Under the pieces are notes generated by a model. It saw only the letters and a program-made list of their open reading frames with translations, was not told where the DNA came from and made no database searches. A program made the translations under genes and the position numbers. Below are positions 43,683 through 56,065 of a stretch of DNA of 64,000 nucleotides, piece by piece. Within the stretch, counting starts at the first letter, position 1. Every line of letters begins with the position of its first letter. The DNA comes from an uncultured Coriobacteriaceae bacterium (GTDB lineage Bacteria > Actinomycetota > Coriobacteriia > Coriobacteriales > Coriobacteriaceae). The stretch is taken from the NCBI GenBank assembly GCA_949287085.1, contig CASEER010000008.1:1-64000 (forward strand), in the 5' to 3' direction.

Positions 43683-45137
43683 TTGCTTAACCACACCACC
43701 TCCTACCCACCAAAGCGTCCGCACCCGCGGCGCAACCAAAAAACCACGGGTTACCAACTGCCCCGCGGCAGGGCGCGTGCGGCGCGACGGCCGGGGGCAA
43801 CCTATCTCAATCATTCACAAGGATTTGGCAGCGCTGGCCGGCGCGGATACGGCGTTAACCGCGCGCCGCGCTTGACGCTGCGGCAGTCGGGCGGTCGGCG
43901 CAACAACGCGCGGCGCTCATATGCCATTGTTATTGTGGGCTGCGCGCTCCTGTTTTTTGTGGCGAGCGTGATTTGGTACCTAAACCGCGGCGTAACCATT
44001 ACGCTCAACGGCGAAGAAGCGAGCATTCACATCAACGGCACCGTTGCGCAGCTGATTGAAAACGAGGGCCTCGACGAGCAGTATGACGCGGGCGACCTGC
44101 TGGCGGTTGACGACAGCGTGCTGGAGCGCGGCGGTGGCGACCGCTATAGCGTGCAGGTCAATGGCAAAAAAATTGCGATGGACGATTTATCCAACGTGCA
44201 GCTGAGCGGCGGCGAAAAGGTTAAAATCGCCGATGGCGCCGACAAATACGAGAAGCACGACGTCAAGGCAACCAAGATTGAGCCTACCATTACCGTCGAC
44301 GGTACGGGTGCCATTGGCTATGTAAAAACCTGGGGCGTTCCGGGTCGTTCAGAAGTGTGGACGGGCAAGCAGTCGGGCATTGTGAAGGACCGCGGTGTGG
44401 TGCAAAAGGTGCAAAACTGCGAGGTCGTATACCGTTCGGTGACGCCCGACAAGGGCAACTACGTGGCGCTTACCTTTGACGAGGGCCCAAGTGAGTACAC
44501 GCAGAAGATTCTTGACGTGCTAAACGAAAAGGGCGTCAAGGCGACGTTCTTCTTGCAGGGCAAGGCGGTGGAAGAAAACGTGGCGGCGGCCAAAGCCATT
44601 GCCGACGCTGGCCACGAGCTGGGGTCGAACGCCTACACCGATACCAACCTCACCAAGCTTTCGGACGACGACCTGCGCTCGCAGCTGACCAGTGGGTTTG
44701 ACGCCATCAAAGATGCGACGGGCACCTCAACGTGTTTGCTGCGCGCGCCGTACGCGGCGTTTTCGGCCAAGAATTGGGCAGAGGGCATGGACCTGGTAAG
44801 CGCCGTGGTGTCGTGGAATCTTGACTCGGGTGACTGGCTGCTGCCGGGGGCGAGCAGCGTGGTGGACACCGTGGTGGGCTCGGTGCGCAACGGCAACATC
44901 GTGCTGCTGACCGACAACGATGCCACCGGTTCGCAAACGGCTGAGGCGCTGGGCGATTTGATTGATCAGTTGCAGGATAAGGGCTACAAACTCGTGACGT
45001 TGAGCGAGCTGGTGGCTACGGATAAGGATTTGGCCAAGGAGCTCGACCTGTCCCAGGTGTCGATGCCGGATGATGCGGTGCTGCCGTCGGTTGCGGCAAA
45101 AGATGCGGCTGGCGACGCCAACACCGCGGCGGAGTAG
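43683..45137 (+). CDS. Degenerate NodB-type polysaccharide deacetylase, predicted inactive
   Basis: 484 aa; TTG start 43683 is fixed by GGGAGG six bases upstream. Basic cytosolic N-terminus, one membrane span (~82-102), an extracytoplasmic domain (RGVTITLNGEEASIHINGTV ...), then a NodB homology fold. The metal and catalytic motifs are changed: TFDDGP is TFDEGP (~264-269), the His-x-x-x-His motif is SNAYTDTN (315-322) with both His lost, and LxHD near the end is LLTDND (~408-413). RAPYAAF and WNLDSGDW remain. The next gene is the same architecture with all motifs intact, so this looks like a pseudoenzyme partner or a carbohydrate-binding derivative. Confidence 0.88.
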   Translation: MLNHTTSYPPKRPHPRRNQKTTGYQLPRGRARAARRPGATYLNHSQGFGSAGRRGYGVNRAPRLTLRQSGGRRNNARRSYAIVIVGCALLFFVASVIWYLNRGVTITLNGEEASIHINGTVAQLIENEGLDEQYDAGDLLAVDDSVLERGGGDRYSVQVNGKKIAMDDLSNVQLSGGEKVKIADGADKYEKHDVKATKIEPTITVDGTGAIGYVKTWGVPGRSEVWTGKQSGIVKDRGVVQKVQNCEVVYRSVTPDKGNYVALTFDEGPSEYTQKILDVLNEKGVKATFFLQGKAVEENVAAAKAIADAGHELGSNAYTDTNLTKLSDDDLRSQLTSGFDAIKDATGTSTCLLRAPYAAFSAKNWAEGMDLVSAVVSWNLDSGDWLLPGASSVVDTVVGSVRNGNIVLLTDNDATGSQTAEALGDLIDQLQDKGYKLVTLSELVATDKDLAKELDLSQVSMPDDAVLPSVAAKDAAGDANTAAE

Positions 45138-45378: not shown

Positions 45379-45495
45379 GGTGGCGGCAAATCGAGCGCGC
45401 TAGGTACGCGCAGACAGACGCAGGATCGGCGTCGACGGAAGGGGCATTTGCAGCACGGCGCGGGGGCGCTGCGCTGCTTGAGGACTGGCGGCATC

Positions 45496-47499
45496 ATGAC
45501 CAACACGAAACACGACCAGACGGGGTCGACGGAACCAAACAACGGGGCAAACGCGTCGCAGGCGACCGACGCAGCTGCGCAGCAGGGTACTGGTAAAGCT
45601 GCGAGCTCGGCGCACGTGGCGGCAGATAGCGCACGCCAGCAGGCGGCGAGCGCTGCGTGGCAGCAGGCGCTGGCCCGGGCGGCAGGTGCCGTGCGCGCAC
45701 AGGGGTCAGCGGCGGCGCAGGCATCGGAAGAGACAGCCGAGGCGAAGCAGGCGCAGGTGCCAGAGGAAGCCGAGGCGCACCGAGTGCGGGCGTCAGAAGA
45801 GGCAACCGACACGCAGCGGGCGCACCACACGACGGAACAACGAGCGGCACGTGCTGCGCAGCATCCGGAGGAGGGCGCCCAGCGGGCACAGGCTCCGCAC
45901 ATGCGCCAGCAGGCTCCACGTGGCACCCAGCGCCAGGTTCCCCACATGCGTCGGCAGAAGGCCGCACATGACGGGCCGCATCAGACCGCTCATCAACGTC
46001 AGCAGGCTCCCCATGCGGCGCATCCGCAGAGTGCAGGAGCAACGCATCCGCAGGGTGCCGGCGCACCACATACCCAGAACCGGCGCGGTGCACGTCCACA
46101 CGGTTCGGGCGCCGCGCCGCATGCCACGGGCAACGCGGGTACTCCTCATGTCGCGGGTCACCCGGGCGCGCCGCACACGGGGTCGCCGCGACCCAATACG
46201 GTGCACCCTCAAACCAACCCGCATCGTGCACAACCCACGCGCCCTGCGACGCTCGGCTACGTTACGGCAACCGACGGCCATGGTCACCGTCCCGGTTACG
46301 GCGGAGCCCGTCCCCTCGCTGCAGCAGCGGCGGCTCTTGCGTGCATCGGGCTTGTGGTGCTTGCGGGCTGCTGGTTCTTTATGTGGCGCGACGTTACGAT
46401 TACGGTCAACGGCGAGCCGGTGACGGCCAAGGTCAGCGCGCCGCTGAGCGAGGTGCTCGACGGCAACGACCAGTTTGGCGCAAAGCCGGGGCGGTTGCTG
46501 TCGGTAACGGGCGAGGTGCTTTCTAAGGACGGCGGCAACGCGTGCACGGTAAGCCGTGGCGAGCAGGAGCTCTCGGCCAACGAAATCAGCCAAGCGCGCG
46601 TGCAAGATGGCGACGAGTTCAGCGTGACGGACGGCACCGACAAGGAGGAGCCTTCGACCGAGGAAACGGTTGAGGTCGCGCCCAAGATCGACAAAAAAGA
46701 GGGCGGCGCTATTCAGTACGTGTCCCAGTGGGGCAAGTCGGGCAAGAAGCGCGTGAAGAAGGGCAAGACCTCGGGCAAAACCGTTGACATCAAGACGCTC
46801 AAAAAAGCGCAGGATATGGTGGTATCGTCGGCCAACATGAATCCGAGTGGCGGCAAGTACGTTGCGCTCACCTTTGACGACGGCCCCAGCTCGTACACGC
46901 CCAAGATCCTGAAGATCCTGAAGGAGAAGGGCGCCAAGGCAACGTTCTTTAACCTGGGCGAGCAGGCCAAGAGCAACCAAAGCGGCAGCAAGGCGATTGT
47001 TGATGCCGGCATGGAGCTTGCAAGCCACACCATGGCGCACCGCAATCTGCCAAAGTGCGATCGCGACACGCTGCGATCCGAGATTACCAAGGCGTTTGAT
47101 GCGCTCAATCAGGCGGCGGACACCAAGGTGCAGATGATCCGTGCTCCGTATGGCGCGTTTACCTCGGCCGAGTGGGCGCGTGCGGGTGACTTGATTTCGT
47201 GCAACGTGCTGTGGAACATCGACACGCTCGACTGGGAGCGTCCGGGCGCGACGGCCATTACGTCGGCGGTGCTCAACCATGCCTATAACGGCGCGATCAT
47301 TCTGATGCACGACGGTGGCGGCAACCGCGAGCAGGACGTTGAAGCGCTGCCGGACATCATCGATGGCCTGCACGAGAAAGGCTACGAGCTGGTGACCGTG
47401 AGCGAGCTCATGAAGCTCGACGGCAGCATTCCCGATGACGTGATCAACGGCACCGTGAGCATGCCCGACGATGCCGTGTTGCCCAAGGTAGACAACTAG
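45496..47499 (+). CDS. Membrane-anchored polysaccharide deacetylase with a long His/Gln-rich N-terminus
   Basis: 667 aa. Residues 1-~270 are a low-complexity Ala/Gln/His/Pro-rich region presumed cytosolic (repeats such as PHMRQQAP and HPQSAGATHPQGAGAPH), then a membrane span (~275-297), an extracytoplasmic domain (RDVTITVNGEPVTAKV ...) and a NodB domain with every motif: TFDDGP (D461, D462), ASHTMAHRNL (His pair ~510/514), IRAPYGAF, WNIDTLDW and ILMHDGGG. Likely deacetylates peptidoglycan or another surface glycan, which can give lysozyme resistance. ATG 45496 is chosen; its ribosome site (GAGGA) is rather distant. Tandem paralog of the preceding gene. Confidence 0.92.
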   Translation: MTNTKHDQTGSTEPNNGANASQATDAAAQQGTGKAASSAHVAADSARQQAASAAWQQALARAAGAVRAQGSAAAQASEETAEAKQAQVPEEAEAHRVRASEEATDTQRAHHTTEQRAARAAQHPEEGAQRAQAPHMRQQAPRGTQRQVPHMRRQKAAHDGPHQTAHQRQQAPHAAHPQSAGATHPQGAGAPHTQNRRGARPHGSGAAPHATGNAGTPHVAGHPGAPHTGSPRPNTVHPQTNPHRAQPTRPATLGYVTATDGHGHRPGYGGARPLAAAAAALACIGLVVLAGCWFFMWRDVTITVNGEPVTAKVSAPLSEVLDGNDQFGAKPGRLLSVTGEVLSKDGGNACTVSRGEQELSANEISQARVQDGDEFSVTDGTDKEEPSTEETVEVAPKIDKKEGGAIQYVSQWGKSGKKRVKKGKTSGKTVDIKTLKKAQDMVVSSANMNPSGGKYVALTFDDGPSSYTPKILKILKEKGAKATFFNLGEQAKSNQSGSKAIVDAGMELASHTMAHRNLPKCDRDTLRSEITKAFDALNQAADTKVQMIRAPYGAFTSAEWARAGDLISCNVLWNIDTLDWERPGATAITSAVLNHAYNGAIILMHDGGGNREQDVEALPDIIDGLHEKGYELVTVSELMKLDGSIPDDVINGTVSMPDDAVLPKVDN

Positions 47500-47606: not shown

Positions 47607-47905
47607 TGTGCCGCGACGCACGCCAAAGTGGCAACCCCTCAAAAGCGCGTCCAACTTGGGCGCGAAGACGCGCGGTGCGCCTTGTCGTTTCGCACGGGGG
47701 CACAACCTGCTATAGTAGGAACGTTTGATATGGGTCACGAGAAAGGTATCAGGTGAAATCGAAACCTCGACCTCACAGTCGCTGACCCCTGCGGGTGCTC
47801 TAAGCGCGCGCATGGGGTAGCACCACGCGCACCGCTTTGCGGCTGTGCTGCGCACGCATAGCTTCGGCGCCGGGTCTGCTCGGCCGCCGGGAATGAAGGA
47901 GCACC
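47607..47905. other. Upstream region and possible leader of the Mg-transport operon
   Basis: TATAGT at 47711-47716 is a good -10 (the -35 is weak), giving a leader of ~185 bases before the ATG at 47906. The leader can form a stem GGTGCT ... AGCACC (about 47795-47825) among others. It does not show the conserved M-box core, so any Mg-sensing role would be through a different structure. Confidence 0.4.
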
Positions 47906-49819
47906 ATGAACTATCTCTCCGAGATGCTCAAGCTGCCCGTTTTGGATGTAAACGGAGCCAAGCTGGGCGTCGTGAACGACCTGGGTATCGCCACGGGCGA
48001 GGTCTTTCCCCACGTTACATCGCTTGCGTTCCAGGGACCGGGCAAAACGCCGTTTATGATTAGCTGGCGCAAGTACGTGGACCATGTTGACGAGACGGGC
48101 GTGCACCTGAAGGCGCGCGACACCGACGTGCGCTTCTCGTACCTGCAGCCCGACGAGGTGCTGCTCGCGCGCGATATTCTTAACAAGCAGATCGTGGACA
48201 CGCAGGGCCTCAAGGTCGTGCGCGTAAACGATCTCAAGCTTTCGAGCACGGGCGATAACCAGCTGCGCCTGATCGGTGCCGAGGTGGGCATGCGCGGCCT
48301 GCTGCGCGCGGTGCATCCGGCGCTCGAGCACGTGGTGGCCCGCATTGCCCGCGCGGTGGGCAAGCCGCTCGAGGAGCACATTATCGCGTGGTCGTACATG
48401 GACCTGCTCGAGCGCAGCACGCAAACCATCAAGCTCTCCGTTTCGCACAAGACTCTTGACGAGCTGCACCCGGCCGACATCGCCGATATCATCGAGCAGC
48501 TCGATCCGCGCTTGCGCGGCCAGGTGTTCGCGCAGCTCGACACGGCGCAGGCGGCCGAGGCCATTAGCGAGTTCGACGATGACGAGCTGGTAACCGAGAT
48601 GCTCGAGGGCATGAGCGACCGCGATGCCTCGTCAATGCTTGCCCTCATGGATCCGGACGACGCGGCCGATCTTATCGAGGAGCTTGACTACGAGAAGGCC
48701 GAAAAGCTCCTGCGCCTCATGGGCGTCAAGGAGGAGCGCGCGATTCGCAACCTGCTGGGCTACGAGGAGCACACCGCGGGCCGCATCATGACGAGCGAGT
48801 TCGTGGCGCTGCCGGCAACGGACACCGCAGCCGATGCCATCGAGGCCATCCGCAAACTCGATGAGGACTTTGAGAGCATCTACTACGTCTACACGCTCGA
48901 CCCGGCGGGCGCGCTCACGGGCGTGCTCTCGCTCCGCACGCTTATCGTGGCCGACCACGACGCGCGGCTCTCGGACCTTGCCTACCGCGACGTGGTGTGG
49001 GTCACGCCCGACGTGGACCAGGAGGACGTGGCGGACGAGATGACCAAGTACGACCTGGTTGCCGTGCCCGTGTGCGACGAAAACCGCCACGTGCTGGGCA
49101 TCGTGACCGTCGACGACGCACTAGACGTCATTGCCGAGGAGCACGAGGAGGACCTGCAGATTGCCGGTGTGGGCGCGGGCGAGGGCTCCTCGGGCGAGGC
49201 ACCCCATGTGCTTTCGTGGTTCGCACGCCGCCAGTACTGGGTGCTTGTGTGGGCCATTGCCTCGGGCATCATCGCGGCGGCGCTCGACGCGGCGGGCGGT
49301 GCAAGCGCGTACTTTGTTTACCCCATGTGCGCGATGCCCGTGGTGCTGCTGGCGGCGGACCGCGTGGTGTCGTTTGTGCGCAACTACTTTTTGGAATACG
49401 ACGCACCGGAGGATGAAGGCAAGCCCTACCTGGGGTTCTTCTTGCAGATGACAGGGCTGGGCGTCATCTTGGCGGCGCTCATCTACCTGTGCGGGCAGCT
49501 CGCGCTCGGCGCGGCGTATCCGGACGACATCATTGCCATGGCAAGCGATTCGACCCTGTTGCCGCTGGTGGACGGGGCGCGGCAGGTGCCTGCCGCGGTG
49601 CTGCAGGTGCAGGCGCTCTCGGCAAGCTTTTCGTGCGCCGCCGGCGTGGTGCTGCTGTGCTGCGTGGCGGCGGTTGGCTACCTTAAGCTGCTCTTTTGGC
49701 GTGACGAGCACGACCTTAACACCTCGGGCACGGCGCTCGGCGCTTCTGCGGTGCTTGGCGCGTGCGCGATCTATTCGGTGGCGGCCACCCTCTTTGTGCT
49801 GCTTGCGGTCTGCTGGTAG
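47906..49819 (+). CDS. PRC-barrel / MgtE_N / CBS protein with a divergent membrane domain
   Basis: 637 aa. N-terminal PRC-barrel segment (VLDVNGAKLGVVNDLGIATG, residues ~12-75), MgtE N-domain (LHPADIADIIEQLDPRLRGQ ... SDRDASSMLALMDPDDAADL, ~190-280), paired CBS (~285-415: AGRIMTSEFVALPATDTAAD, GVLSLRTLIVADHDARLSDL, VVWVTPDVDQEDVADEMTKY, GIVTVDDALDVIAEE), then ~190 residues with five membrane spans. The spans lack the conserved pore motif of MgtE channels as I remember it, so this may be an Mg-sensing regulator rather than the channel. ATG 47906 follows AAGGAGCACC. Seven bases separate it from the NRAMP-type gene. Confidence 0.88.
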   Translation: MNYLSEMLKLPVLDVNGAKLGVVNDLGIATGEVFPHVTSLAFQGPGKTPFMISWRKYVDHVDETGVHLKARDTDVRFSYLQPDEVLLARDILNKQIVDTQGLKVVRVNDLKLSSTGDNQLRLIGAEVGMRGLLRAVHPALEHVVARIARAVGKPLEEHIIAWSYMDLLERSTQTIKLSVSHKTLDELHPADIADIIEQLDPRLRGQVFAQLDTAQAAEAISEFDDDELVTEMLEGMSDRDASSMLALMDPDDAADLIEELDYEKAEKLLRLMGVKEERAIRNLLGYEEHTAGRIMTSEFVALPATDTAADAIEAIRKLDEDFESIYYVYTLDPAGALTGVLSLRTLIVADHDARLSDLAYRDVVWVTPDVDQEDVADEMTKYDLVAVPVCDENRHVLGIVTVDDALDVIAEEHEEDLQIAGVGAGEGSSGEAPHVLSWFARRQYWVLVWAIASGIIAAALDAAGGASAYFVYPMCAMPVVLLAADRVVSFVRNYFLEYDAPEDEGKPYLGFFLQMTGLGVILAALIYLCGQLALGAAYPDDIIAMASDSTLLPLVDGARQVPAAVLQVQALSASFSCAAGVVLLCCVAAVGYLKLLFWRDEHDLNTSGTALGASAVLGACAIYSVAATLFVLLAVCW

Positions 49820-49825
49820 GCGCGC

Positions 49826-51070
49826 ATGCAGGGGAGAGATGCAGGCAGCAAGCTCACGCTCGGCGCGGTACTGGGCGCCATGGGGCCGGGGCTCTTGGCG
49901 GCGCTTGCGGGCAACGATGCAGGCGGCATTGCCACCTACTCGAGCGCGGGCGCGTCGTTTGGCTACGGCACGTTATGGATTCTGCCCGTTATGGCCGTGC
50001 TGCTTATCGTGGTGCAGGAGACTGCGGCGCGCTGCGGATGCGTGACGGGCAAGGGCTTTGCGTCGCTCATTCGCGAGAAGTTCGGCGTGCGGCTCTCGGC
50101 GCTCGCCATGGCCGCGCTGCTCGTGGCCAACACGGCGGTGACCATCTCGGAGTTCGCAGGCATTGCAAGCGGTCTTGCGCTCTTTGGGGTACCCACCACC
50201 ATTTCTGTGCCGCTGGTGGCGCTCGTTATCTGGCTCATTACCATGAGCGGGAGCTTTGCGCGCATCGAGAAGATTCTGCTGCTGGTGAGCTGCGTGTTTC
50301 TTACGTACGTGGTGGCGGCGTTTATGGTGGGGCCCGATTGGCTCGCGGTGGCGCGCGCCACGGTGACGCCACAGCTCGTGAGCGACCCGGATTACGTATC
50401 GCTGCTCGTGGCAACCATCGGCACCACGATTGCGCCGTGGATGATCTTTCTCGCCCAGAACAACGTGGTCGATAAGAACGTGCGCGAAGACGGCATTGCG
50501 CTGCAGCGCGTGGATACGGTTTCGGGCTCGGTGATTGCCTGCGCGATCGCATGGTTCATCATCGTGACGACGGCGACGGTGCTGCATCCCGCGGGCATTG
50601 AGGTGGGCGACGCGGCGGACGCGGCGCTGGCGCTCGAGCCCATCGCGGGGCAGTGGTCGACCATCCTCTTTGGCGCAGGGCTCGTGGCAGCGAGCTTTTT
50701 GGCCGCGTGCGTGCTGCCGGGCGTGACGTCGAGCGCAATCTGCGAGGCGTTTGGCTGGGAGCGCGGCGCCGACCGCACGTGGGACGAGGCGCCGGCGTAC
50801 CGCGGCATTATTACGGGCATCATCATGCTCTCGGCGTTGCTGGTGATTTTGCCCGGCGTGGACCTGTTTGACATCATGATGAGCGCGCAGGTTATCAACG
50901 GCGTGCTGCTGCCTATTCTGCTCGTGTTTCTGGTGCTCATTGCGCGCGACGGCCGCATCATGGGCGCCTACCGGAACGGCCGCGTGTGGAACATCCTCAC
51001 GGTGGCGACTATCGTGCTGATTACCGTGCTGACGGTGGTGATGCTCGTGCTCCAGGCGCTCGGATTTTAA
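49826..51070 (+). CDS. NRAMP-family transporter of the Mg-type (NRMT)
   Basis: 414 aa, about 11 spans. NRAMP fold: GAMGPGLLAALAGNDAGGIA then TYSSAGASFGYGT. In Mn/Fe NRAMPs the metal site is DPGN in span 1 and a Met-containing MPH motif in span 6; here span 1 has NDAGG (N30, D31) and span 6 has TIAPWM (A203 where Met is usual). Replacement of that Met is the mark of NRAMP-related magnesium transporters, described from Eggerthella and clostridia. Coupled to the MgtE-like gene upstream, supporting Mg uptake. The start at 49826 has no strong ribosome site, so translation is probably coupled. Confidence 0.9.
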   Translation: MQGRDAGSKLTLGAVLGAMGPGLLAALAGNDAGGIATYSSAGASFGYGTLWILPVMAVLLIVVQETAARCGCVTGKGFASLIREKFGVRLSALAMAALLVANTAVTISEFAGIASGLALFGVPTTISVPLVALVIWLITMSGSFARIEKILLLVSCVFLTYVVAAFMVGPDWLAVARATVTPQLVSDPDYVSLLVATIGTTIAPWMIFLAQNNVVDKNVREDGIALQRVDTVSGSVIACAIAWFIIVTTATVLHPAGIEVGDAADAALALEPIAGQWSTILFGAGLVAASFLAACVLPGVTSSAICEAFGWERGADRTWDEAPAYRGIITGIIMLSALLVILPGVDLFDIMMSAQVINGVLLPILLVFLVLIARDGRIMGAYRNGRVWNILTVATIVLITVLTVVMLVLQALGF

Positions 51071-52624: not shown

Positions 52625-52796
52625 AGCAAAAAGCTTAGCAGGTTTTGCGTGGGCAGATCGTCCGTTTGGACAAGTAACCGATAGGTTTGTTGCGTCAGGC
52701 AGTCAGATCGGTTAACGGACCCCTGCATTCTTGCGCGATACGTGGCTCCATACGCTACAATGGCACGATACCGTCGGAGTAGTTGCGGAGGGTGTT

Positions 52797-53627
52797 ATGG
52801 CCGCTGGCAAGGCGAAGGCTAAAGAAGCCCGCATCGACCGAATGTCTATCGAGCTCAGGCGTTCAGAGATCCTTAAGATAATCGATCAAGACGGCTCGGT
52901 GAGCGTGCAGAGGATTCGCTCGACGTTTGGTGTGTCCGAGGTGACCGCGCGCAACGATTTGGCCGCACTGGCAAAACAGGGGCATGTGAGGCGCGTACGG
53001 GGTGGCGCATGTGCTGTTGACAGTGTGGGGATCCCGTCCGACCCGGCTCTGCGTCTTAACGTAAACGCCGAGGCAAAGGTGGCTATTGCGCGCGCGGCTG
53101 CCGAGTTTGTTGAGGATGGAGACCGCATTGTGGTCGATGCGGGCACCACGACGCTCGAATTTGTAAAGGCGCTGGCGGGCAAGCAAGACCTTACCATCAC
53201 GACATACGATTTGGATATTGCGCTCTATGCCGATGCGCATTTGCCCAATGTCGAGGTGACCATGCCAGGAGGAACGCTTCAAAAGAATCGGCGCTATTTG
53301 GCGGGGCCGCTCGTTACCGACAACTTGGCGCGCTTCTATTTTGACAAGGTGTTTCTTGGCGCCGATACCTTTTCTTCGCGACAGGGATTTGGCACCAAGT
53401 ACATGGCGAGCGCGGCAATCAAAGAGAGCATGATCAAGCACGCGCGCTACAAGTACATGCTGCTTGATGCGTCAAAGGTTGGCCGCACGAGCCCGGTGCG
53501 GTTCTCGACAATCGAAGACTTGGACGTCATTGTTATCGATCACGACCCCGAAGATACCGTGCGGCTTTCTATTGACGCGCTTGCGCTCAACGCGATCGTT
53601 AAGTTGGTGCAGGCAGACGAGCAATAG
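52797..53627 (+). CDS. DeoR-family transcriptional regulator
   Basis: 276 aa. N-terminal helix-turn-helix: RRSEILKIIDQDGSVSVQRI, FGVSEVTARNDLAALAKQGH and VRRVRGGA. C-terminal sugar-phosphate-sensing domain (DeoRC): IVVDAGTTTLEFVKALAG, VTMPGGTLQKNRRYLAGPLV and DKVFLGADTFSSRQGFGT. Such regulators bind a phosphorylated intermediate; IolR of inositol operons is of this family and responds to the IolC product. ATG 52797 follows GGAGGGTGTT. It heads the carbohydrate locus. Confidence 0.93.
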   Translation: MAAGKAKAKEARIDRMSIELRRSEILKIIDQDGSVSVQRIRSTFGVSEVTARNDLAALAKQGHVRRVRGGACAVDSVGIPSDPALRLNVNAEAKVAIARAAAEFVEDGDRIVVDAGTTTLEFVKALAGKQDLTITTYDLDIALYADAHLPNVEVTMPGGTLQKNRRYLAGPLVTDNLARFYFDKVFLGADTFSSRQGFGTKYMASAAIKESMIKHARYKYMLLDASKVGRTSPVRFSTIEDLDVIVIDHDPEDTVRLSIDALALNAIVKLVQADEQ

Positions 53628-53697
53628 CCCGTACGAGCGCCATCGCGACGAGCACCATCGCGGTGCGCGCGTTTTTTGCTTACCGTGCGTCTAAGTC

Positions 53698-53726
53698 TTG
53701 ATTCGATGGTTTCCATCGGCTAATCT
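53698..53726 (+). promoter_or_regulatory. Promoter with internal palindrome before the iolC-like gene
   Basis: TTGATT (53698-53703), 17 bases, TAATCT (53721-53726). The spacer contains the perfect inverted repeat CGATGG-TTT-CCATCG (53704-53718), well placed for repression by the DeoR-type protein encoded upstream. Confidence 0.65.
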
Positions 53727-53841
53727 GCATAGTGCTGGACGGTGCCGACTCTCATCATGCCTAGTCCACGTTCAAACGTGCCCTGGAGAACGCAGGGCAG
53801 GTGCGTGGGCTCCTGTGGAGCTACTTGATGAGGAGAGGTAC

Positions 53842-54876
53842 ATGAGCATCTTTCATGAGGATGACGCTCGGCCATTCGATGTTGTGTTGCTTGGACGTAT
53901 TGCCATCGATTTCAATCCAGCATATACCGATCAGGTACAAGAGGATTTCAAGCCCCTTAAAGACGTGCATGTCTTTGAAAAGTTCGTAGGGGGCTCGCCG
54001 GCAAACATTGCGGTCGGGCTTGCGCACCATGGTCTTAAGGCGGGCTTTTTTGCTAAGGTCTCGGACGACCAATTTGGCGACTACGTAACCGAGTATTTCG
54101 AGCGCGCCGGTATCGATGTGTCGCACATCACGCGAGCGACTGGCGGGGAAAAGCTCGGCCTCACCTTTACCGAGATGCTGAGCCCATCCGAAAGCAATAT
54201 TCTTATGTACCGAAACGGCATCGCCGACCTGCAGCTTTCGGTCGACGATATTGATGAGGAATATATTGCGCAGGCCAAGGCCCTGCTTGTTTCGGGGACG
54301 GCGCTCGCCGCCAGCCCTTCGCGCGAGGCGGCGCTTAAGGCGGTAATGCTGGCGCGTCGCGTTGGCACGCCGGTCATTTTTGACATCGATTACCGCGCGT
54401 ATAACTGGACGAGCCTTGATGAGATTTCGATTTACTACGCCGCCGTCGCGCGCGAGGCAACGGTGATCATGGGGTCGCGCGAAGAGTTCGACCTTACCGA
54501 GCGCCTGATCGCGCCCCATATGTCAGACGAGGAATCGGCTGCATACTGGCAGGGCCAGCACGCGCAGATCGTTGTGATCAAGCATGGAATGGAAGGGTCT
54601 ACGGCATACACTGCCGATGGCGGGCGGTACGCCATCCGTCCCTTCCCGGTTACCGCGCGCAAGGGATTCGGCGGCGGTGACGGCTATGCTGCTGGATTCC
54701 TGTACGGTTTGTTCCAGGGCTGGGACGTTTTGCGGTGTCTTGAGTTTGGATCGGCAGAGGCGTCGATGATGGTCCGCGCCAACAACTGTTCGGATGCGCT
54801 GCCAACCCCTCAAGAAGTGCAGTCGTTTATTGACGAGGAGAAGCGCCAGTACGGCGAGATGGTTGCACAGGCATAA
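53842..54876 (+). CDS. iolC: PfkB-family sugar kinase, 5-dehydro-2-deoxygluconokinase (IolC) type
   Basis: 344 aa. Family features: FDVVLLGRIAIDFNPAY, EKFVGGSPANIAVGLAHHGL, AKVSDDQFGDYVTEYFERAG, IFDIDYRAYNW and the C-terminal signature GFGGGDGYAAGFLYGLFQGW with the catalytic Asp. In inositol breakdown IolC phosphorylates 5-dehydro-2-deoxy-D-gluconate. The FNPAY start and DIDYRAYNW segment match IolC better than ribokinase or fructokinase. An iolD gene at the end of the locus supports this. ATG 53842 follows GAGGAGAGGTAC. Confidence 0.9.
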   Translation: MSIFHEDDARPFDVVLLGRIAIDFNPAYTDQVQEDFKPLKDVHVFEKFVGGSPANIAVGLAHHGLKAGFFAKVSDDQFGDYVTEYFERAGIDVSHITRATGGEKLGLTFTEMLSPSESNILMYRNGIADLQLSVDDIDEEYIAQAKALLVSGTALAASPSREAALKAVMLARRVGTPVIFDIDYRAYNWTSLDEISIYYAAVAREATVIMGSREEFDLTERLIAPHMSDEESAAYWQGQHAQIVVIKHGMEGSTAYTADGGRYAIRPFPVTARKGFGGGDGYAAGFLYGLFQGWDVLRCLEFGSAEASMMVRANNCSDALPTPQEVQSFIDEEKRQYGEMVAQA

Positions 54877-54907
54877 ACGTGGCCCAAGGGTAAGGTGAGG
54901 AATAATC

Positions 54908-56065
54908 ATGGCTTACGGATTTTCAATACCTGATCGCATCCTGTATGGTGCGAACGCGCTTGACGACGCAGCTTCGTGGTTTGCGACAAAGGGAACAAAA
55001 GCGCTGATCGTGACCGACGAAACGATGGTGAAGCTGGGGAACGTCTCGTTGATAACAACGCTTTTGGAGCAGGCGGGGCTGTCGAGCGTGGTGTTTAGCG
55101 ACGTGAACGCGGAGCCAACCGACGAGGTTGTCCGTGCGGGCGCGGCGTGCTATCGTGCGCATGGCTGCGGCATGATCGTAGCGCTGGGCGGTGGCTCGCC
55201 AATCGACACCATGAAGGCCATCGCGCTGTGTGTCGCAACGGACCGCGACATCGATGAATTTATGGGAGAGGCGTATAGCGGGCCCGTTTGCCCCCTGGCG
55301 GCAATTCCCACAACAGCGGGAACAGGATCAGAGGCAACGCAGTTCACCATCATCACCGATACTGCTCGCGATATAAAAATGCTGCTCACCGGCTCGTCGT
55401 TGCTGCCGGAGCTCGCCGTGGTCGACCCGCGGTTCACGGTCACGGCGCCTCCCGGGGTAACCGCGGCAACCGGCATCGACGCGCTCTGCCATGCGGTCGA
55501 AGCGTTTACCTCGCGCAAGGCGCAGCCGCTGTCTGACACCTTTGCGCTTTCGGCTATCAAGCGCATCTGGAACAACCTGGTGACCTGTTACCGCGAGCCC
55601 TCGAATCTTGATGCGCGCACGCAGCTTTCGCTGGCGGCAACGGAGGCCGGCATCGCTTTTAACAACGCCAGCGTAACGATTATCCACGGTATGTCCCGGC
55701 CCATTGGCGCGCTGTTCCATGTACCTCACGGCCTTTCTAACGCCATGCTCATGGAGCCATGCCTTTCGTTTGCCCTCGATGGGGCCTACGAGCGCTTTGC
55801 CACGATTGCGCGCTCGTGCGGGCTGAGCGACGCCGCGGACGATCAGGTGGCGGCACACGATTTTATGGCGGAGCTTCGCCAGCTCTTGGAGGCTCTTGCT
55901 ATTGCAACGCCCCAGGAATACGGCATCGATTGTGCAGAATACGAGGCGGCGATTCCCAAGATGGCAGCCGATGCGCTTGCGAGCGGAAGCCCCGGCAACA
56001 CCATCAAGCAGGTGACGGTTGAGGATATGGAAGAGCTGTACCGTCGTGCTTATGCAAGGCAGTAG
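54908..56065 (+). CDS. Iron-containing alcohol dehydrogenase
   Basis: 385 aa, type III metal ADH. GGGSPIDTMKAIAL for NAD binding, IPTTAGTGSEATQFTIITD, metal ligands from GIDALCHAVEAFTS and NASVTIIHGMSRPIGALFHV then PHGLSNAML. Relatives reduce aldehydes or oxidise diols (1,3-propanediol, lactaldehyde). In this locus it may reduce an aldehyde from sugar cleavage, such as the malonic-semialdehyde branch of inositol breakdown, or oxidise a polyol; not determined. Weak ribosome site GGTGAGG before ATG 54908, 31 bases after iolC. Confidence 0.93.
   Translation: MAYGFSIPDRILYGANALDDAASWFATKGTKALIVTDETMVKLGNVSLITTLLEQAGLSSVVFSDVNAEPTDEVVRAGAACYRAHGCGMIVALGGGSPIDTMKAIALCVATDRDIDEFMGEAYSGPVCPLAAIPTTAGTGSEATQFTIITDTARDIKMLLTGSSLLPELAVVDPRFTVTAPPGVTAATGIDALCHAVEAFTSRKAQPLSDTFALSAIKRIWNNLVTCYREPSNLDARTQLSLAATEAGIAFNNASVTIIHGMSRPIGALFHVPHGLSNAMLMEPCLSFALDGAYERFATIARSCGLSDAADDQVAAHDFMAELRQLLEALAIATPQEYGIDCAEYEAAIPKMAADALASGSPGNTIKQVTVEDMEELYRRAYARQ

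Follow-up and report, generated by a model that had tools for sequence, protein, structure and literature searches.

A pore-less MgtE homologue encoded beside an Nramp-related Mg2+ transporter in Coriobacteriia and its probable role as a Mg2+ sensor

The window that we analyzed, 64,000 nucleotides of contig CASEER010000008.1 (assembly GCA_949287085.1), comes from an uncultured, gut-type Coriobacteriaceae bacterium whose genome is 76% complete, and it carries two adjacent genes that we call A and B. The product of gene A is probably a non-conducting MgtE protein, kept as a Mg2+ sensor and regulator of the Nramp-related Mg transporter (NRMT) encoded by gene B. This reading draws on the domains of the gene A protein, its homology to MgtE, the loss of its pore, the conservation of its Mg2+ ligands, its linkage to NRMT, the co-loss of the two genes, and Mg riboswitches in relatives. 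We are more tentative about a wider evolutionary reading, which may fall somewhat short of even likelihood: that the dead channel became a dedicated regulatory subunit of NRMT, whose LeuT fold is unrelated to its own, with the sensor elsewhere re-paired with an MgtA-type ATPase and its membrane domain shed.

Organization of the gene pair

Genes A and B are both on the + strand, and 6 bp separate the stop of gene A from the start of gene B; their coordinates and reading frames, first given in a sequence-only reading of this DNA, are correct. The main features are as follows.

47896..47901, +: ribosome-binding site of gene A, AAGGAG, 4 bp ahead of its ATG (sequence read directly)
47906..49819, +: gene A, 637 aa, consisting of PRC, MgtE_N, a CBS pair, and a transmembrane domain of degenerate MgtE type
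47909..48088, +: PRC-barrel domain, aa 2-61 (Pfam PF05239, E 3.3e-6)
48464..48769, +: MgtE_N domain, aa 187-288 (Pfam PF03448, E 6.4e-25)
48785..49144, +: CBS pair, about aa 294-413 (Pfam PF00571, two stretches)
49109..49165, +: plug-helix equivalent, aa 402-420, with E412, E415 (Mg2), and D416 (Mg3)
49214..49816, +: membrane domain of five helices, aa 437-637, diverged from the MgtE transmembrane domain
49355..49375, +: ADRVVSF, aa 484-490, replacing the MgtE TM2 motif GGNxGxQ
49751..49753, +: V616, aligned with the MgtE pore aspartate (D432 of Thermus thermophilus)
49826..51070, +: gene B, NRMT, 414 aa
49916..49927, +: DAGG, helix-1 metal site, NRMT DxxG replacing DPGN
50423..50440, +: TTIAPW, helix-6 metal site, NRMT TxxA, with W replacing the first H

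The two genes most likely form one operon and would be cotranscribed. Conservation of the pair across hundreds of genomes rules out chance as its explanation.

Gene B and the NRMT clade

The gene B protein belongs to the NRAMP/SLC11 fold family (Pfam PF01566 Nramp, E 5.5e-86), and its closest solved structure is EleNRMT of Eggerthella lenta (7qia; E 8e-145, aligned over aa 14-413). EleNRMT is a demonstrated Mg2+ transporter; it transports Mg2+ in liposomes and is the sole protein described in that work (PMC8806188), in whose text the terms CBS, operon, and adjacent gene had no match. The literature gives the NRMT signature as DxxG-TxxA/T (PMC8806188). Gene B carries it as D31-A-G-G34 in helix 1 and T200-T-I-A203-P-W in helix 6; TTIAPWMIFLAQNN of gene B aligns with TTIAPWMMFFNQSN of EleNRMT. 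The replacement of the DPGN and MPH metal motifs by NDAGG and TIAPW had thus been read correctly from the letters and corresponds to the published signature. In helix 6b, tryptophan takes the place of the first histidine and asparagine that of the second, as in an NRMT that lacks proton coupling. EleNRMT and gene B match over their full length and share DxxG/TxxA as well as W and N at both helix-6 histidine positions; nothing notable differs, and gene B is an ordinary family member. Judged by its sequence, then, gene B encodes an NRMT-clade transporter for Mg2+ uptake, and the 7qia match and DxxG/TxxA site support its earlier assignment as NRMT. DxxG/TxxA plus PW was found in 87 of the 101 neighbors of gene A examined; the others mostly have DxxG with TxxS or TxxT.

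Mg2+-sensing module of gene A

Sites Mg2 to Mg7 have been defined for MgtE of T. thermophilus (PMC5882242). Alignment places predicted equivalents of their ligands at E218 (Mg7), D251 (Mg4), and D255 (Mg6) in MgtE_N and at D383, D404, and D407 in the CBS pair; together with E415 and D416 of the plug-helix equivalent, gene A holds equivalents of all the acidic ligands for Mg2 to Mg7. Residues 402 to 420 form a single continuous helix in the full-length model. Gene A has the MgtE_N domain and CBS pair of an MgtE channel, and its score against the MgtE model TIGR00400 (214.8) is below the cutoff of 232.75, with the match ending at model position 299 of 450. Both the Pfam domains and the ligands present support the earlier claim of a Mg2+-sensing MgtE_N/CBS module in the upstream gene.

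Gene A could instead be a scaffold for assembly or stability, in which the PRC and membrane domains act and Mg2+ sensing is secondary. A PRC domain is common to these partners, and the membrane proteins that adjoin them vary (NRMT, MgtA, and, in other Actinomycetota, a DUF1003 protein), as would suit a scaffold. Against this, the strongest constraint in gene A falls on MgtE_N (dN/dS 0.01 to 0.05), and the Mg-ligand residues are kept; we consider a scaffold unlikely.

Membrane domain of gene A

The C terminus of gene A has five hydrophobic spans, in which Pfam found no PF01769 match in the window's own protein. When we searched the 248 genomes of the class (Coriobacteriia), PF01769 matched the C termini of gene A homologues from deep lineages, some above the curated cutoff (33.1 bits in G067, 31.5 in G031, and 30.2 in G043). 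L155, a gene A homologue from another class with NRMT just downstream, scored 61.6 bits over positions 1 to 125 of 125. An hhalign comparison of 52 gene A C termini with 19 canonical MgtE domains gave a probability of 97.4% over 190 of 210 columns, collinear, and a control against NRAMP gave 0.1%. A profile built from gene A only retrieves canonical MgtE genes from other parts of the phylum, with E values of 2.9e-7 and 1.2e-6 (L156 checked). AlphaFold2 modeled the domain with a pLDDT of 88.9, and the best three Foldseek matches of this model are MgtE structures, including 4u9l/4u9n (probability 0.95 to 0.98, compared to 0.28 for the best non-MgtE match); the E values are weak (0.2 to 0.4), so the fold match only supports the sequence profiles. 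The domain, which has the five-helix arrangement of the MgtE channel, is a degenerate homologue of the MgtE transmembrane domain. What the sequence-only reading took for a new membrane domain is a diverged MgtE domain instead: hhalign, the PF01769 matches in homologues, and Foldseek rule out a new fold. It evolves under purifying selection that is looser than that on MgtE_N (dN/dS 0.16 to 0.32), making a decaying remnant unlikely.

Loss of the pore

We compared pore and ligand positions in one alignment of 120 sequences. The D432 column holds aspartate in all 23 canonical MgtE proteins and in none of the 47 five-helix gene A proteins. GGNxGxQ of TM2, absent from gene A along with the pore aspartate, is likewise gone from its five-helix homologues. 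Alignment therefore confirms that the five C-terminal spans lack the usual MgtE pore motif. The Mg-ligand columns of the same five-helix forms are nearly invariant: D91 and D247 are each kept in 47/47, and in the plug helix E255 is kept in 46/47, E258 in 45/47, and D259 in 47/47. In soluble partners, which have no membrane domain, the plug-helix residues E258 and D259 are mostly absent. Retention of the plug-helix ligands in five-helix forms, and their frequent loss where the membrane domain is missing, argues that the sensor, the plug, and the membrane domain evolve together as a unit.

By its pore residues (D432 column and TM2 motif), gene A cannot be a normal MgtE channel. It might still conduct or carry divalent cations through a pore remodeled with other residues, the operon then providing two uptake routes. 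Such a role would fit a five-helix fold that is retained, confidently predicted, and under purifying selection, and the persistence of gene A without NRMT in a few genomes. However, the D432 column contains no conserved acidic substitute (mostly M or V and never D), the TM2 pore motif is absent, mutation of the Mg1 site abolishes MgtE conduction (PMC5882242), and the membrane domain has been lost twice while the sensor stayed. We find a remodeled channel improbable.

Linkage to NRMT and distribution

Gene A matches, some of which are to canonical MgtE, occur in 227 of the 248 class genomes, and 207 genomes have NRAMP matches. A survey for conserved linkage, proposed in the sequence-only reading, bore the linkage out: NRMT directly follows gene A at all 30 of the nearest loci and at 56 of 59 additional loci where the downstream DNA is long enough (L031 to L090; the exceptions are L075, L076, and L084, and L051, which ends too early, was left out). 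Across Coriobacteriia, gene A is almost always linked to NRMT. At the order level, 15 of 15 genomes without gene A also lack NRMT; 11 have no NRAMP and 4 have only distant NRAMP proteins. Gene A is found without any NRAMP in G172 (a single contig), G228, and G008, the first two being reverse exceptions in the order. These genomes, together with an MgtA-linked lineage described below, contradict NRMT as a strictly obligatory partner. Of the earlier proposal that the first protein is a "dedicated sensor or gate" for the second, the sensor part gains from the Mg-sensing module, the linkage, the co-loss, and the Mg riboswitches that relatives have ahead of the pair; strict dedication fails on those same exceptions.

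Outside the class, soluble forms of gene A lie beside NRMT in Caldisericota, Chloroflexota, Thermoleophilia, and Rubrobacter. Five other Actinomycetota loci (L092, L096, L099, L100, and L106) encode a distant PRC-MgtE_N-CBS protein followed by a DUF1003 membrane protein, the Pfam match to DUF1003 having been checked in L100 only; the DUF1003 protein is possibly a further partner of the same type of sensor. The L100-type protein shares the cytosolic architecture of gene A but has neither a membrane domain of its own nor an NRMT neighbor, and it is distant in the tree.

History of the membrane domain

In the tree, the five-helix forms cluster and L155 is sister to all Coriobacteriia (99/94); the deep branches, which bear on whether canonical MgtE, the soluble partners, or the five-helix form came first, are weak or uncertain. 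Eggerthellaceae have kept NRMT, with the membrane domain of gene A cut down to one helix; pairing therefore does not depend on the five-helix domain. In another lineage (L075 and L174), gene A has lost its membrane domain and lies a few bases behind an MgtA-type ATPase. This arrangement, a cation P-type ATPase and then a membrane-less gene A homologue, is seen at L174:4560-8473, L162, and L075 (G026, G032, and a termite-gut actinomycete MAG); in G026 the ATPase scores above the TIGR01524 cutoff for MgtA. The gene A sensor seems to have been re-paired there with another Mg2+ importer.

Mg riboswitches and other Mg2+ transporters

M-box Mg riboswitches lie just upstream of the gene A-gene B pair at four five-helix loci (L055, L057, L059, and L064) and just upstream of soluble gene A forms at three (L077, L080, and L085). 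Although deep relatives have an M-box, none was found upstream of the pair in the window, and M-box control of that pair was discarded. We did not find canonical MgtE in the window's genome, at its 76% completeness, nor in those members of its family that were listed. The genome does contain a CorA-family gene, which rules out the pair as the organism's sole Mg2+ importer. MgtA above the TIGR01524 cutoff was found in four of five sampled genomes that have gene A without NRMT (G172, G008, G020, and G026, not G228).

It is improbable that the pair carries Mn2+ or another divalent metal rather than Mg2+, as proposed for the Acidobacterium capsulatum pair, whose NrmT is most likely a Mn2+ carrier despite its MgtE-like neighbor (Shin et al. 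2014, PMC4072509): gene B closely resembles the Mg2+ transporter EleNRMT, deep relatives have an M-box Mg riboswitch ahead of this operon, and neither the window's genome nor the listed family members yielded canonical MgtE, though CorA is present.

Three genomes with five-helix gene A invite separate mention. G172 (L146/L175) has an intact gene, no NRAMP or CorA genome-wide, and two MgtA-type ATPases. G008 and G020 (L173 and L172), of a different lineage, have no NRAMP and carry MgtA elsewhere; their gene A is downstream of what read as purA/purD/purE-like purine genes.

Proposed mechanism

Our preferred reading, that gene A is a Mg2+ sensor for NRMT, would work as follows. Gene A would descend from an MgtE-type channel that gave up conduction and retained the N domain, CBS pair, and plug helix. 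At high cytosolic Mg2+, the ion would bridge the N and CBS domains and shift the plug helix, as it does in MgtE; the change may then be relayed via the dead membrane domain to the adjacent NRMT, slowing uptake. Since gene A would have no pore to close, its simplest output, on the MgtE analogy, would be a change in the neighboring NRMT. Contact between the two proteins, Mg2+ binding by gene A, and the direction of the effect are likewise what we infer. Weighing against this reading are Mg2+ transport in liposomes by EleNRMT, the results of Shin et al. 2014 on small partners given below, the presence of gene A in genomes free of NRAMP (G172, G228, and G008), the one-helix gene A that accompanies NRMT in Eggerthellaceae, and the failure to find an M-box ahead of the pair in the window.

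Relation to known systems

Linkage of NRMT to a gene for an MgtE N domain, a riboswitch connection, and the idea of feedback are already known from Shin et al. 2014 (PMC4072509). In that work, the partner of the Clostridium proteins was dispensable for Mg2+ transport, and coexpression of the A. capsulatum partner gave no additional rescue; both partners are of the small type, not five-helix (PMC4072509). Like gene A, they are paired with nrmT, have the MgtE cytosolic module, and have been assigned a proposed feedback role, and some relatives of both systems have Mg riboswitches. The partners of Shin et al. are small and resemble the MgtE cytoplasmic domain, whereas gene A, which also lies beside nrmT and has that cytosolic homology, is neither small nor cytosolic only: it has 637 aa, a five-helix pore-less domain, and plug-helix Mg2+ ligands.

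With the T. thermophilus MgtE channel (2yvx/2zy9/4u9l), gene A shares the N domain, CBS pair, plug-helix ligands, and five-helix fold; unlike that channel, it has an extra N-terminal PRC domain, has lost the pore aspartate and GGNxGxQ, and is encoded with NRMT. Among the papers searched, we found none on PRC-barrel/MgtE proteins or on an MgtE/Nramp regulatory subunit, nor any report of a dead-channel, pore-less MgtE beside NRMT. New in this analysis are an MgtE membrane domain that lacks the pore while the gating ligands remain intact, the way this domain is distributed, the two occasions on which it was lost, and the gene A form linked to MgtA.

The question of what an MgtE-like gene does beside NRMT dates from 2014, and the structural work on NRMT did not take it up. 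Gene A amounts to the MgtE gating apparatus minus the pore, and its known Mg2+ ligands and plug helix make its role testable by defined mutations. If our reading is true, a channel has been turned into the regulator of another transporter; to our knowledge, there are few clear bacterial examples. Judging from the one-helix partner gene of Eggerthellaceae relatives, the Eggerthella NRMT may have been studied without its native regulator.

Other genes in the window

Our remaining observations come from reading the window's sequence directly. Two neighboring paralogues (43683-45137 and 45448-47499) encode polysaccharide-deacetylase-like, membrane-anchored proteins, the second with a low-complexity segment of ~280 residues, rich in A, H, Q, P, and R, ahead of its membrane helix. 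At 52731-56065, the gene for a DeoR-type regulator comes first, and after it those for a PfkB-type sugar kinase resembling 5-dehydro-2-deoxygluconokinase and for an iron-type alcohol dehydrogenase.
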